This document shows positions 45,105 through 50,871 of a stretch of DNA of 50,871 nt, piece by piece (the stretch's first letter is position 1; each line of letters starts with the position of its first letter). A program made the position numbers and the translations under genes. This DNA comes from Bacillota bacterium. GTDB taxonomy: Bacteria; Bacillota; Sulfobacillia; JAJZYS01; JAJYTV01. The notes under the pieces are model-generated. The model was not told the origin of the DNA, did not search any database, and was given only the letters and a program-made list of their open reading frames with translations. Where the stretch lies: positions 1 to 50,871 of the forward strand of contig JAJZQO010000013.1 in assembly GCA_021847575.1 (NCBI GenBank), in the 5' to 3' direction.

Positions 45105-46715
45105 CTAGCCATGCGCCCGCCTCAGGCCGTCGACAGGACGTGCGTTGAGGACCTGGTCCTGCCGCAAGCCGGCTTTCTGCGCCTGCGCGATGCCCAGTGG
45201 CATGTATTCCAGTTCGTGCGTCGAGTGGGCATCGCTATCAATCACGAAAGACAGCCCTGCGCCGTTTCGCCCCTCGAGCCAACGGAAGTCTAGGTCCAGA
45301 CGGCGCGGCGACGCGTTGATTTCGAGGGCCGTGCCGCAGCTCGCTGCGGCGTCGAACACCGCCTGCCAGTCCGCGGCGATGGGTGGGCGCTCGCCGAGCT
45401 TGCGCGCGCCCGGGTGGCCGATCGCGGTGACGAGCGGGTGGCGGATCGCCCGCACCAGACGCTCGGTCGCGGCCGCAGGGCTCTGGTCGAAGTGGTTGTG
45501 CACCGACGCGATGACCACGTCGAACTCTTGGAGCAGATCATCCGGCAGGTCCAGGGACCCGTCGGCATGGATATCCACCTCGCAGCCCTGGAGCAGCGAG
45601 AAACCCTCCGGCAGGTGCGTCCGCAACTCCTCAATCTCGCGGCGCTGCGCTCGGAAGCGCTCGGGCGTGAGACCGTTGGCCACCTTGAGACCCTGCGAGT
45701 GGTCCGTGACGGCAAGGTAGGCGTAGCCGCGGGCCACCGCCGCACGCGCCATGGCAGGGATGTCCGCGAGGCCGTCCGACCAGCTGGAGTGGCTGTGCAG
45801 GTCGCCCCGCACCGTGTGCACAGCCGCATCGCGCACCCTGGGAGCGATGCCGCGCAACGGGGGTGGGATGGGGATCATGCCGGCGCGCTCGAACACATCG
45901 TCCTCGGCGAAACACGGCACCTGGCGCTCCCCATCGTAGAGTTTCGCCGCGTCCAGCCGCAGGCCGCGATGTCCGAGCGTCTCCCCCATCTCGGCCAAGA
46001 AACTCTCGGGCCCCGTGTGCCAGAGCAGCGCCGTGCCGAGCTCCTGCTCCGGAACGAAGAGCAGGGCGTCCTCGGCTACCGTCCACGCACCTTCGAGCAC
46101 GATCGGCAAGAGTTCGTGCCAAGCTCTGCGGCTCTCCGCGCTGTCGGGCGCGAGCCAGCGCGGTCTCTCCACCAGCGGATCCAGACGACGCACTCCGCCG
46201 GTTGCGACAAGACCCGGCACGACCCGTCCCAGGCTCTCGGTCAGAGCGAGCAAGTCGGGCAGCGGCACACCGCGCCGCCGCTCGGCGAACGCCCGCAGCA
46301 ACTGGCGCCGCTGCGCCGGCGTCACGCCGGGGAGTTCCTCCCCGGCTGCCAGATGGTCCGCAAGTCCCGAAACAGTGCCGATGCCGGCCGCCCAGAGCTT
46401 GCGCGCCGTGCTCGGGCCCACGCCCGGCAGACGCAGGAGCCACGAGAGCTCGGGCGGCTGCACTTGCCTGCGCCGGACGAGGCCCGGGGGCATCTCGCCC
46501 TCGGCCATGCGCATGATCTTGTCGGCAATCTTCCTGCCGATGCCTGGAGTCCCTTCCAGCGCCTCGCGGCTCGAGAGATCGATCGCGTGCATCTCGAGGC
46601 GCCGCGCCGCCTCGCGGTAGGCCCGCACCTTGAACGGGTTCTCGCCTGCAAAGGCGATGCGGTCTGCGAGTTCGTGCAGCCAGGATGCGATCTGCCGAGG
46701 CCCTGCCAAGACCAT
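45105..46715 (-). CDS. polX: PolX-family protein with degenerate polymerase site and intact PHP domain
   Basis: ATG 46715 has AGGGGG a few bases upstream; 536 residues. The helix-hairpin-helix region is clear (GTPGIGRKIADKIMRM, LPGVGPSTARKLW). The polymerase centre, normally GSxRR with an Asp-x-Asp pair, is GGVRRLDPLVERPRW, so the metal-binding aspartates are missing, and the later VDLR aspartate is absent too. The C-terminal PHP metal sites are complete: DLHSHSSWSDG, TDHSQG, EVDIHADG, SVHNHF and DSDAHS. I expect a 3'-5' exonuclease or AP-endonuclease-type repair enzyme without polymerase activity. It is divergent from aspS. Confidence 0.85.
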   Translation of the reverse strand: MVLAGPRQIASWLHELADRIAFAGENPFKVRAYREAARRLEMHAIDLSSREALEGTPGIGRKIADKIMRMAEGEMPPGLVRRRQVQPPELSWLLRLPGVGPSTARKLWAAGIGTVSGLADHLAAGEELPGVTPAQRRQLLRAFAERRRGVPLPDLLALTESLGRVVPGLVATGGVRRLDPLVERPRWLAPDSAESRRAWHELLPIVLEGAWTVAEDALLFVPEQELGTALLWHTGPESFLAEMGETLGHRGLRLDAAKLYDGERQVPCFAEDDVFERAGMIPIPPPLRGIAPRVRDAAVHTVRGDLHSHSSWSDGLADIPAMARAAVARGYAYLAVTDHSQGLKVANGLTPERFRAQRREIEELRTHLPEGFSLLQGCEVDIHADGSLDLPDDLLQEFDVVIASVHNHFDQSPAAATERLVRAIRHPLVTAIGHPGARKLGERPPIAADWQAVFDAAASCGTALEINASPRRLDLDFRWLEGRNGAGLSFVIDSDAHSTHELEYMPLGIAQAQKAGLRQDQVLNARPVDGLRRAHG

Positions 46716-46792
46716 CAACCCCCTAGGCAGGCTGCCCGCCCCGCATGCGGGCATGCGGCCGCTCGAAAGGCAGCTGGGCACGCCACCCGTCG

Positions 46793-46801
46793 TGCTATAA
46801 T
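46793..46801 (+). promoter_or_regulatory. Extended -10 promoter of aspS
   Basis: TGCTATAAT is a perfect extended -10 element. The start would be near 46808, right at the base of T-box stem I. No good -35 hexamer was found, as is common for extended -10 promoters. Confidence 0.6.
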
Positions 46802-46807
46802 GGCGCA

Positions 46808-47056
46808 AACGATGAAGGAGAGCAGTAGCGGCACCAGCCGGGACCAAGAGAGCCGCCGCAGCTGCGAAGGCGGTTCCCGGCCGTCGCGAAGACGCTCCGG
46901 AGCGCATGGCCCGCGGTCCCACACCGCGGCTTTGCCGTAACGCCCACGTCACGGGCAGCAAAGAGGTCGGCGCATAGCCGGCGAAGTGCGGTGGCACCAC
47001 GACGCCCCCTCGTCCGCACAGGACGTGGGGGCACATGTCTTGCTGGAGGTGGTGCC
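46808..47056 (+). ncRNA. T-box leader with GAC specifier, probably translational
   Basis: Stem I is readable: GGAG (46817-46820) pairs with CTCC (46895-46898); AGTA (46824-46827) faces CGAAGACG, where GAC at 46891-46893 is the specifier (Asp) followed by the usual purine. Above it CCGGGA (46838-46843) pairs with TCCCGG (46875-46880). AGAGAGCCG (46847-46855) and GCTGCGAA mark the distal part. The T-box sequence GGTGGCACCACG lies at 46990-47001; its bulge TGGC would pair with tRNA ending GCCA. TGGCACCAC (46992-47000) is exactly complementary to GTGGTGCCA (47049-47057), which abuts the ribosome site and includes the A of the ATG. Between them a hairpin (47004-47032) forms. No U-run follows, so control by hiding the start site is the best reading. 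Confidence 0.85.
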
Positions 47057-48346
47057 ATGTCCCGTATCCTGGCCGCAGCCATGTCCGAACACCTGGGCGA
47101 GGAGATCGTGCTCAAGGGCTGGCTGTCCCAGCTGCGCGAACTCAGAGCCCTCTCGTTCCTGCTCCTGCGCGACCGAAGTGGCACCGCGCAGGTGGTGCTG
47201 CGCGATCCGGGAATGATTCAGCGGCTCGCTGAGTTGCCGCGGGAGTCGGTGCTCGAAGTGCGAGGCAGGGTTGCCCAGCGCGGCGACGGTCGGCCTGGTG
47301 GAGAGCTGCACGACCCCGAGATCCGCCTGCTCGCCGCCGCATCCGAATCCCCGCCCTTCGACCTCTTCCGTCCGGAGCTCAACCTGCCGCTCCCCACAAT
47401 GCTCGACTACGCGCCCGTCTCGCTCCGCCACCCCAGGCGCAGGGCCGTGATCGAGCTGGCCGCCGCGGCCGCGCACGGCTTCCGGCAGAGCCTGCGCGAC
47501 AGGGGCTTCGTCGAGATCCACACGCCGAAGCTCGTCGAGGCCGCAACCGAGGGCGGCGCCAACGTGTTTCCCGTCGCCTACTTCGAGCGCACGGCCTACC
47601 TGGCGCAGAGCCCGCAGTTCTACAAGCAGATGATGGTCGGGGTGCTCGAGCGAGTCTTCGAGGTGGGACCCGTGTTCCGCGCCGAACCCCACGACACGCC
47701 CCGCCACTTGAACGAATACGTCTCTCTCGACGCAGAGATGGGTTTCATCGCGGACCACCGCGACGTGATGGCGATGCTGCGCAACGTGATCGCAGGCATG
47801 CTCGGGGAGGTCGAGCGCGCGACGCGGCCAGAGCTTGACCTGCTTGGCGTCGAACTCCCGGTAGTGCCGGACGAAATCCCCGTCCTGCACTTCACGGCGG
47901 CAGAGCGGCTCCTCGGCGCAGCCGGGGCGTCCGGCGGCGACCTCTCCGCGGCTGACGAGGCTGCGCTGGGAGCCTGGGCCCGGCGCGAGCATGCGTCGGA
48001 ATTCCTCTTCGTCGAGGGCTATCCCGCCGACCAGCGACCCTTCTACACCCACCCGGATCCCGAGCGGCCGGGCTTCACCCGCGGCTTCGACCTGCTCTTC
48101 CGCGGCCAGGAACTCGTCACCGGCGGCCAGCGCCTGCACCGCTACGAAGACTACCTCGCCGCGCTCGCGGCGCGGCACCTCGATGCGGCCCCCTTCGCAG
48201 GCTACCTGCAGGCCTTCCGGTTCGGCATGCCGCCGCACGGCGGGTTCGCCATCGGTCTCGAGCGCTTTGTTGCACGCCTCACCGGCCTGCAGAACATCCG
48301 CCTGGCTACGCTGTTCCCGCGGGACCTCACCCGCCTCTCCCCCTGA
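47057..48346 (+). CDS. aspS: Aspartyl-tRNA synthetase, archaeal type
   Basis: ATG 47057 has GGAGG seven bases upstream; 429 residues, shorter than the ~590 of typical bacterial AspRS because the GAD insertion is absent. Class II motifs appear as ATEGGANVFPVAYFERTAYL, QSPQFYKQMMV, VFRAEPHDTPRHLNEY and GMPPHGGFAIGLERF. An N-terminal OB fold (LKGWLSQLRELRALSFLLLR) binds the anticodon. Archaeal-type AspRS in bacteria can be non-discriminating and supply Asp-tRNA(Asn) to GatCAB. The T-box with GAC specifier in front links its expression to uncharged tRNA-Asp. Confidence 0.9.
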   Translation: MSRILAAAMSEHLGEEIVLKGWLSQLRELRALSFLLLRDRSGTAQVVLRDPGMIQRLAELPRESVLEVRGRVAQRGDGRPGGELHDPEIRLLAAASESPPFDLFRPELNLPLPTMLDYAPVSLRHPRRRAVIELAAAAAHGFRQSLRDRGFVEIHTPKLVEAATEGGANVFPVAYFERTAYLAQSPQFYKQMMVGVLERVFEVGPVFRAEPHDTPRHLNEYVSLDAEMGFIADHRDVMAMLRNVIAGMLGEVERATRPELDLLGVELPVVPDEIPVLHFTAAERLLGAAGASGGDLSAADEAALGAWARREHASEFLFVEGYPADQRPFYTHPDPERPGFTRGFDLLFRGQELVTGGQRLHRYEDYLAALAARHLDAAPFAGYLQAFRFGMPPHGGFAIGLERFVARLTGLQNIRLATLFPRDLTRLSP

Positions 48347-48444: not shown

Positions 48445-49683
48445 ATGGGCATCATCATGCGGTACCGGGGCTTCCGCGCCGTGTGGCTTGGCCAGCTGTT
48501 CTCCCAGCTCGGCAACGCGGTCTTCATGATCATGGCGCTCTGGGAGATCCAGCTCCGCCAACCGCAGCTCCTCGCGGTGGCCGGGCTAGCCATGGTCCTG
48601 CCCTCGTTGCTCGCCGCCTTTGGCGGCGTCTTCGTCGACCGCAGCCATCCGGGACGGCTGATGCTCTGGACCGACATCCTGCGCGGAGTCGCCGTCGCTC
48701 TCGGCCTGATGTGCCTCCTGCTGCCGGGCAGCCTCGACATCGTGGCGATCGCTCTGATCGCGGTGAACAGCCTTGGCGTGGCCCTGTTCGGCCCTGCCGA
48801 GATGGTCGTCGTGCCGCGCCTCGTCGCAGCTGCTGACCTGGCGGGTGCGAACGGCCTCTACAGCCTGACGTCTCAGCTCTCGAGCGCCATCGGCTCGGCG
48901 ATCGGCGGAGCCGCGATCGTCGCGGTAGGCGTCGCCTGGGTCTTCGGCTTCGACATGGTGTCGTTCTGGATCTCCGCAGCGGCGATCCTGCTGATGCTGC
49001 AGACCTTCACTTGGCATCCCGCAGAGCGCCAAGCGCAGCAGGCCCAGGCAACGAGCTTCGGCGGGAGCATGCGCCAGGGCTTCGCGGGACTGCGCACCCT
49101 GCCAGGCATCCTGCCCCTCACGCCGGCCGTCCTCGTCGCAAACTTCGCGTTTACGGCCGCGTTTACGATGCTCCCCTACTGGATCCACCACATCCTCGGC
49201 GCCGATGCGGTGGACTACGGCCTGATCGATGCGGCCTGGGCGGCTGGGCTCGTGCTCGGGAGCCTGCTCGCGGGCAGGCTCGGCTCCTTGAAACTGCGCA
49301 CGACAAGTGCTCTGATGTTCGCGGGACAGTCGCTGCTGACGCTGCTCTTCCCATTTGCCGGCGCGAGCCCGCTGGCGGCGGCGGTTCTGTTCCTCGCAGG
49401 TGTCGCCAACGGTGTGGCGAACGCGCTGCTGTTCACCATGATGCAGCGCCTCACGCCAGAGAATCTGCGGGGACGCGTGTTCGGGGTGTTATTCACCCTG
49501 TTCGGCCTCGCGAACCCGCTCGGCTCCCTGGCCGCTGGGCTCGCCCTAGGCCATTTGCCGCTCGCCTGGTCCTGGTACGCCTCTGGACTCGCCTGCATCT
49601 GGTTGACCGCGGCCATTTGGGCCAGCGTGCCGGACGACATCGCCGCCGAAGGTGCGGAGGCGGCCGTACCCGGCGCAATTTGA
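48445..49683 (+). CDS. MFS exporter (MefA/EntS-like branch)
   Basis: ATG 48445 (MGIIMRYRGFRAVWLG) gives 412 residues; ATG 48457 is an alternative. Twelve helices, with FRAVWLGQLFSQLGNAVFMI and FGGVFVDRSHPGRLMLWTD near the start, fit MFS exporters of the macrolide/siderophore branch (Pfam MFS_3-like). A closely related copy follows 89 bases later. Substrate unknown. Its ribosome site is in a stable hairpin. Confidence 0.85.
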   Translation: MGIIMRYRGFRAVWLGQLFSQLGNAVFMIMALWEIQLRQPQLLAVAGLAMVLPSLLAAFGGVFVDRSHPGRLMLWTDILRGVAVALGLMCLLLPGSLDIVAIALIAVNSLGVALFGPAEMVVVPRLVAAADLAGANGLYSLTSQLSSAIGSAIGGAAIVAVGVAWVFGFDMVSFWISAAAILLMLQTFTWHPAERQAQQAQATSFGGSMRQGFAGLRTLPGILPLTPAVLVANFAFTAAFTMLPYWIHHILGADAVDYGLIDAAWAAGLVLGSLLAGRLGSLKLRTTSALMFAGQSLLTLLFPFAGASPLAAAVLFLAGVANGVANALLFTMMQRLTPENLRGRVFGVLFTLFGLANPLGSLAAGLALGHLPLAWSWYASGLACIWLTAAIWASVPDDIAAEGAEAAVPGAI

Positions 49684-49772
49684 GCGGCTCAAGGCGCACC
49701 TGCGAGATGCCGCCCCAGGACATTCCGGACACCAGCCGCGCCAGATGACCCCCGAGGAGAGGAGCGATCCAG

Positions 49773-50871
49773 ATCGGCATCATCCTGCGCTACCGGAACT
49801 TCCGAGCCGTCTGGCTGGGCCAGCTCTTTTCGCAGTTCGGCAACGCCGTCTTTCTCATCATGTCCCTCTGGGAGATCCAGCTGCAGAGGCCCGCGCTCCT
49901 CTCGGTCGCGGGAGTCGCGATGGTGTTGCCGACGCTGCTCGCCGCCTTCGGCGGCGTATTTGTGGACCGCCATCACCCCATCCGCCTGATGCTCTGGACC
50001 GATGTGCTGCGCGGTGTGGCCGTAGCGCTCGGACTGCTTCTTCTTCTCCTGCCGGGCAGCCTGGCGGCCGTCACCATCGCGCTGATTGCAGTGAACAGCC
50101 TGGGGGTGGCGCTCTTCGGGCCTGCCGAGATGGTCGTCATTCCGCGACTGGTCACCGACCAGGACCTCGCCGGGGCGAACGGCGTCTACAACCTCACCTT
50201 CCAACTCGCGAACGCCATAGGTGCCGCCATCGGCGGTGCGGCAATCGTCGCGATCGGCGTCGCCTGGGTGTTCGGCTTCGACATGGTCTCCTTTTGGATT
50301 TCCGCGGCGGCGATCCTGTTCGTGCTCAGGACGTTCACATGGGCGCCCAAGGGGCCTCCGTCCAACGGGGAACCGGCGCAAAGCTTCTCCGAGAGCATGC
50401 GCGAAGGTTTCGCGGCGCTGCGCCGCACGCCGGTTGTGTTGCCGGTGCTGCCGGCCGCTCTCGCGATCAACTTCGCGTTCATGGCCGCCTTCACCATGCT
50501 GCCGTACTGGATCCACCATGTCCTCGGCGGCGGGGCCGTCAGCTACGGCCTCGTCGATGCCGCCTGGGCCGCCGGCCTTGTGGCGGGCAGTCTGCTCGCC
50601 GGCCGCGTCGGCGCCTGGGGGCTGAGACGGGCCTTGACCTCGATGTTCGGCGTCGAGGCCCTGCTGATGATCTTTTTCCCCTTTGCCCCTACGGCCGTTC
50701 TGGCCGCGGCGACGCTGCTTGTGGCGGGCATGGCCAACGGCATCGAGCTAATTTCGCTGTCGGGAAACCCGCTCTGGGAGCGAGGTTGCGGGCACGGAGA
50801 GAATGAGTTTCCCCCACAAAACAACGCAGGACAGGCCAGTTCAGCAATAGTCAATGGGAGTGTCGAGCAAA
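49773..50871 (+). pseudogene. Second MFS copy: ATC at start position, broken near 50744, runs off window
   Basis: From 49773 the frame reads IGIILRYRNFRAVWLGQLFS and matches the preceding protein along ~323 residues. The codon aligned with that gene's ATG is ATC, with GAGGAGAGGAG eight bases before it; no ATG, GTG or TTG fits, and a CTG at 49785 is too far from the site. ATC is a rare but usable start, so translation is possible but weak. Similarity stops at about 50744, after GMANGI, where the first copy continues ANALLFTMMQRLTPENLRG. The frame stays open to the window edge with unrelated sequence. A tandem duplicate decaying through loss of start and an insertion or deletion is the simplest view. 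Confidence 0.75.
50745..50871. mobile_element. Foreign sequence interrupting the MFS copy, possible insertion-element end
   Basis: From GAGCTAATTTCGCTGTCGGG onward the DNA no longer matches the paralogous gene and is less GC-rich. The sharp junction inside a gene suggests the edge of an insertion sequence or of a rearrangement. No transposase or confirmed inverted repeat is inside the window. Confidence 0.3.

Follow-up and report, generated by a model that had tools for sequence, protein, structure and literature searches.

The leader of aspS2, one of two aspartyl-tRNA synthetase genes of a Bacillota bacterium, raises the question of whether a T-box can mask a start site with the very bulge that receives its tRNA. 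We analyzed a stretch of 50,871 nucleotides carrying this gene (contig JAJZQO010000013.1 of assembly GCA_021847575.1; hereafter the window), for which a sequence-only reading had proposed a translational T-box whose bulge pairs with the ribosome-binding site (RBS). The positions that it gave are exact: TGGCACCAC (46992-47000) is the perfect 9-nt complement of GTGGTGCCA (47049-47057), which runs from the last G of the Shine-Dalgarno (SD) sequence GGAGG (47045-47049) to the A of ATG (47057-47059). Its placing of the first strand in the T-box bulge holds for UGGCACC, but the last two nucleotides are the start of helix A2 (Table 1).

Table 1. Features of the aspS2 leader and gene, in window coordinates.
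Feature	Position	Strand	Basis
Extended -10 promoter element TGCTATAAT	46793..46801	+	sequence; present in 5/5 genus leaders
T-box leader, RF00230 model 1-219	46803..47020	+	covariance-model match
Stem I, long form with AGUA and AGAGAG elements	46809..46903 (approximate ends)	+	RF00230 alignment
Specifier codon GAC (Asp)	46891..46893	+	register in genus leaders
A1 helix, 5' strand GUGCGG	46986..46991	+	helix search, folding
T-box bulge UGGCACC; UGGC matches tRNA-Asp GCCA	46992..46998	+	sequence, RF00230 alignment
Putative sequestrator, 5' strand UGGCACCAC	46992..47000	+	complementarity, predicted folds
A2 helix ACGA/UCGU with loop	46999..47013	+	helix search, folding
Nested hairpin GCCCCC.CGUCC/GGACG.GGGGGC, incompatible with A1/A2	47004..47032	+	folding
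A1 helix, 3' strand CCGCAC	47014..47019	+	helix search, folding
Shine-Dalgarno GGAGG	47045..47049	+	sequence
Putative sequestrator, 3' strand GUGGUGCCA, SD edge to A of AUG	47049..47057	+	sequence, 5 genus leaders
Archaeal-type (nondiscriminating-family) AspRS gene	47057..48346	+	NF003483, TIGR00458, ORF end

Judged from its sequence, the leader is a T-box with near certainty. An Infernal-type check, as the sequence-only reading had suggested, returned a match over the full RF00230 model (55.3 bits, E 2e-11) that does not reach the gathering score of 93. All T-boxes of this genome fall short of that score, which is why an Rfam scan of the whole window at the gathering threshold gave zero matches; weak matches to PyrR204, P4, mir-6132 and CcsR1 in the window were dismissed as chance. 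The assignment to Asp also stands, since the register of the specifier GAC is conserved in all five leaders of the genus, where GAAGAC precedes a purine and CTC(C/T)GGAG; by eye, it matches that of the pheS, thrS, ileS, valS and cysE T-boxes of the same genome. Loose-pattern specifier counts over all leaders over-call, and none was used outside the genus. The bulge is flanked by an A1 helix of 6 bp and an A2 helix of 4 bp, and Stem I is long and aligned to the model, not short or ultrashort as in class II (ileS-type) T-boxes. A promoter scan requiring a -35 element detected no promoter at the leader.

We infer from this architecture that the leader binds tRNA-Asp and responds to its charging. 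A search of the window genome, in which 30 of 35 tRNA hits were scanned and a pattern search was added, returned no tRNA-Asp; that of a genome of the same genus (G002) ends in GCCA, complementary to the UGGC of the bulge. By eye, GCCACCGC, the 3' strand of a tRNA-Asp acceptor (L158, 1470-1545), has a second register in which it is complementary to GCGGUGGC of the leader; GGTGGC sequences are the probable source of this match.

Folding of 46980-47068 (Vienna) gave a lowest-energy structure of -47.9 kcal/mol in which the bulge and the two following nucleotides pair with the RBS strand and enclose the nested hairpin, against -32.6 kcal/mol when A1 and A2, the antisequestrator, are enforced; the closed structure would therefore be the default without tRNA. 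Both the hairpin between the two strands and the antisequestrator competing with it, as originally described, are present in the predicted folds, which contest the strands GUGCGG, UGGCACC, ACGA, UCGU and CCGCAC. The masking of the start site is borne out in part: the OFF helix extends over the spacer and the first base of AUG, but leaves U and G free and GGAGG only partly paired (probabilities of being unpaired 0.62, 0.24, 0.38, 0.61 and 0.01), and the ON fold may cover AUG again. In the lowest-energy (MFE) folds of the window's genus, the SD core is likewise not paired with the bulge proper, which pairs with the spacer and mostly also the A of AUG, the last SD bases pairing with the two A2 nucleotides. 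When the ON fold is forced, the freed GGACGUGG can pair with CCAUGUCC across AUG. By eye, such cover is weaker in the relatives, with fewer pairs; in the predicted structures, this re-covering counts against a simple picture.

We nonetheless consider it likely that aspS2 carries an Asp-specific T-box with a translational platform, in which a helix between bulge and RBS masks the start, a reading built on two mutually exclusive predicted folds, the specifier, the bulge, conservation in the genus and the lack of a recognisable terminator. When tRNA-Asp is charged, the sequestrator would form, its two strands closing over the GC-rich hairpin and blocking the ribosome start. Uncharged tRNA-Asp would set its anticodon on GAC and its GCCA end on UGGC, upon which A1 and A2 would form, undoing the nested hairpin and the RBS pairing; the freed RBS would then allow the second AspRS to be made.

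How readily could such a complement arise by chance? GGTG is part of a strong SD by the 16S rule. Four of the nine pairs would thus come free if an extended SD (GGAGGTG) simply met CACC in a constitutively expressed gene, and among 34 sites of the window resembling an SD plus start, on both strands, an unrelated one at + 21403 has an 8-nt complement and another, on the minus strand, one of 7 nt. Only the aspS2 site reaches 9 nt, with a probability of 2.3e-4 when the 7 nt from GGAGG to ATG are randomised at window composition. A coincidence of this kind appears very improbable in view of that figure, the conservation in the genus and the exclusive antisequestrator. With Rfam hits L015 and L016 merged as one, the genome has 15 T-boxes; their longest exact complement to the RBS measures 9 nt for aspS2 and 6 for cysE, and the remaining 13 reach 3 or 4. 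Our confidence in bulge/RBS control is nevertheless tempered, as 8 nt occur at an unrelated site and the genus scores nil when SD bases paired to the bulge are counted (at least three required). The key helix of aspS2 itself offers no compensatory change, because the bulge is constrained by the tRNA.

The usual alternative for a T-box is transcription termination, a U-tract terminator opposed to an antiterminator. Neither a scan of 46600-47300, which yielded no terminator-like site, nor a count of the tail past the nested hairpin (ACAUGUCUUGC, 4 U in 8, below a threshold of at least 5 T in the 8 bases after the switch) gives such a terminator. Polymerase might still stop at the nested GC-rich hairpin without a proper U-tract, the RBS complement being secondary: the stem is terminator-like and at the customary place, its tail has some U's (AUGUCUU), the leader of G002 (L018, identical to L181) passes the 5-of-8 test with TATGTCTT, and the tail of the glyQ T-box in the window genome, TATCTTCT, is about as weak. 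We regard this as unlikely, given the empty scan, the RBS strand kept in all five genus leaders, and the U-rich tails of the genome's other T-boxes, of which 13 of the 15 pass the tail test, aspS2 and cysE failing it. The cysE T-box (L002, 179-393 and downstream) has no U-tract, and its bulge TGGAAC has a match, GTTCCA, immediately 5' of the SD. This position reads GTTTCA in four same-genus genomes, and the T-box tails are T-richer in three genomes of a sister genus (g2). As a second case, cysE stands as a lead: its complement is 6 nt long, but the paired strand does not reach past the 5' side of the SD.

The product of aspS2 scores 531.8 bits against NF003483 (cut-off 353) and 365.8 bits against TIGR00458, just below the cut-off of 368.4. 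The genome also encodes a bacterial AspRS (TIGR00459, 684 bits), and another match to the aspS2 query, at 35% identity, is taken to be AsnRS. Downstream of aspS2, the window holds two tandem MFS efflux-like genes (48448-50870); the first has a counterpart of 69-71% identity downstream in four of four same-genus loci, and no MFS counterpart was found at 1e-5 in any other locus searched. Speculatively, the MFS pair and the spare AspRS could form an inhibitor-resistance set. The divergent neighbour (45108-46721, minus strand), which adjoins aspS2 in the four same-genus loci too, resembles PolX/PHP proteins, with scores short of the curated cut-offs; a longer ATG-start ORF, to 47036, overlaps the T-box on the opposite strand.

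Six genomes of the genus were examined, five of which, including the window's, carry aspS2; the sixth (G004, 76% complete) gave no match. By eye, the T-box, the nested hairpin and the RBS strand are kept in the window's leader and those of the four orthologues while the linker and early codons vary, and L019, which starts with GTG, has a duplex one pair shorter. These five sequences are close kin, which weakens the argument from conservation.

For a wider view, we combined 17 matches of at least 43% identity from 61 genomes around the window (L017-L033) with the best 80 of at least 587 relatives from named genomes, ranked by likeness to the query, giving 96 rows once the partial L102 was removed. 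A quick tree of these proteins, rooted at the midpoint and with SH-aLRT support values, puts the window's genus inside a branch of 62 rows with support 100, composed of 38 Actinomycetota, 13 Chloroflexota, 3 Bacillota, 2 rows of other phyla, the 5 genus rows and L022; 11 of 12 orthologues from other genera of the window's class fall outside it. Of nine genomes from other genera of the family or order, eight have only weak matches to aspS2 (8e-47 to 5e-55) and one has none, and horizontal transfer is therefore the likely cause of this placement.

A helix test was failed by 24 of the 96 leaders. L056 was restored by hand; L086, whose match lies within the gene, and L101, with a disrupted frame in its match and a very long branch, were omitted, and L069 and L077, which have a T-box motif with T-runs, were kept out of the set. 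This left 71 leaders with a T-box and both helices, including 37 of the 38 Actinomycetota. In this sample (best 80 of at least 587, plus L017-L033), T-runs were flagged outside the clade in 15 of 16 leaders and inside it in 5 of 18 non-Actinomycetota leaders (L047, L064, L090, L096 and L100) and in 2 of 37 Actinomycetota, where both sit inside the SD hairpin; the clostridial relatives L114 and L119 also have T-runs. The five clade leaders with a T-run lend something to the poor-terminator explanation, and in four of them the duplex likewise joins bulge and RBS, weakly in L100. As the relatives span stems with and without a T-run, one could also imagine dual control, with partial termination added to RBS masking as an intermediate between terminator and sequestrator platforms; the tail of the aspS2 leader in the window fails both the terminator scan and the tail test, making this quite improbable.

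Several Chloroflexota and Bacillota relatives set the bulge against the RBS, repeating the design that the sequence-only reading had put forward and supporting, as a prediction, a translational T-box on this gene. Inside the clade, the bulge takes up at least three SD bases in the MFE folds of five leaders without a T-run (L052, L056, L067, L071 and L109) and of four with one (L047, L064, L090 and L100); outside it, L029 does the same, while L091 and L096 fit bulge to RBS in the duplex and not by this count. Mean duplex energies between T-box core and RBS are -13.0 kcal/mol for the non-Actinomycetota of the clade (n=14), -9.7 for Actinomycetota (n=37) and -5.6 outside the clade (n=16), with one-sided p of 0.007 and 1e-4 for the differences between groups set by gene clade and taxonomy, the window's genus counting once. 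An earlier grouping (p 8e-4 and 3e-5) was dropped because its groups had partly been picked by viewing the pairing. The value reached by Actinomycetota RBSs is a further point for the chance explanation of the bulge/RBS match.

Translational control in this gene family is supported by the Actinomycetota through another strand. In 23 of 37 MFE folds, most of the SD pairing comes from the A1 3' strand, three leaders pair at least three SD bases with the bulge (L058, also among the 23, L063 and L078), and the remaining ones show neither masking. Own A1 3' strands fit the RBS better than swapped ones: over 24 genera the energies are -11.2 versus -10.2 kcal/mol, a value that 1 of 5000 shuffles equalled or undercut, and with all 37 leaders 4 of 5000 shuffles did so. 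L022 and L095 use neither strand; inspection by eye suggests that the SD could be masked by GGGUCCU/AGGACUC in one and by GGGACCU/AGGUCUU in the other, pairs that differ by a compensating change and are absent from their MFE folds. Nested hairpins of 15 leaders have two-sided pair changes at positions -3 to -9, the pairs being taken from each MFE fold and hence paired by construction. A MAFFT alignment of 14 switches was left unused for counting because of unequal hairpin lengths and a shifting RBS register.

The design was called unusual for Bacillota, and within the sample of the phylum it is: the pattern of T-box, 25-55 nt, GGTG, 5 nt and start occurs in 2 of 398 genomes drawn from it, the window's own and G344, the window's genus mates lying outside the draw. 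Overall the description fits less well, since translational-looking T-boxes are frequent on aspS2 in the Actinomycetota and Chloroflexota loci sampled and translational ileS T-boxes are known. Many are poorly visible to Rfam: none of 14 Actinomycetota aspS2 loci tested reaches the RF00230 gathering score, against 6 of 12 other loci; eight of the 14 have E <1e-3, L049 (cut by the contig end) has E 0.54, and the search of L061, L063, L068, L089 and L099 gave no match. By eye, the leaders of L061, L068, L089 and L099 have an apparently short Stem I. The Chloroflexota locus L101, which carries aspS2, holds a Guanidine-III riboswitch above the gathering score (253-315).

An excerpt of PMC7583486 describes most T-boxes as transcriptional and a smaller class, mostly of Actinobacteria, as translational, mostly with intermediate or ultrashort Stem I and in a few cases long. 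SD-hiding T-boxes on actinobacterial ileS appear in the excerpted text of Seliverstov 2005 (PMC1262725), and part of PMC7778990 presents a class II T-box search in Actinobacteria without sequestrator prediction. Like those on ileS, the aspS2 leader would sense tRNA and hide the SD in its OFF fold without termination; unlike them, it is Asp-specific, has a long Stem I, precedes an archaeal-type AspRS gene in a host of the class of Sulfobacillus, and engages the bulge itself in the masking strand. With transcriptional (class I) RF00230 T-boxes it shares the long form, Stem I with its specifier, the UGGN bulge and A1/A2, but no U-tract was found and the hairpin is closed by the T-box/RBS helix. 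Extracts of PMC2494555 report 18 T-boxes in Symbiobacterium and one on one of three aspS genes in Clostridium acetobutylicum, likewise an extra aspS, its mode not given there. The closest parallels are the T-boxes on archaeal-type AspRS genes of Actinomycetota and Chloroflexota, which share the gene clade and a TGGCACC/TGGCACA bulge and, in 35 of 37 Actinomycetota, lack a T-run, the latter phylum differing in that the A1 3' strand does most of the SD masking. Among the open-licence literature matches listed, we recognised none that deals with a translational T-box for Asp, which is no claim that such a paper is absent from print.

Two propositions taken together, that the bulge doubles as an anti-RBS, with the NCCA end of the tRNA and the ribosome competing for the same nucleotides, and that the archaeal-type AspRS gene carries a series of platforms across phyla (T-run terminator; T-run plus bulge/RBS helix; bulge/RBS helix alone; A1-strand/SD helix), seem to us evenly balanced between right and wrong. 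If they are true, the change from a transcriptional to a translational T-box would be traceable on one gene, within a cross-phylum T-box family many of whose members lie under the Rfam threshold. This would be a second widespread translational set beyond the actinobacterial ileS T-boxes, as far as the excerpted sources describe these, and on one orthologous gene; and with several platforms, on long and apparently short Stem I, the change between terminator and sequestrator would be testable by small swaps.
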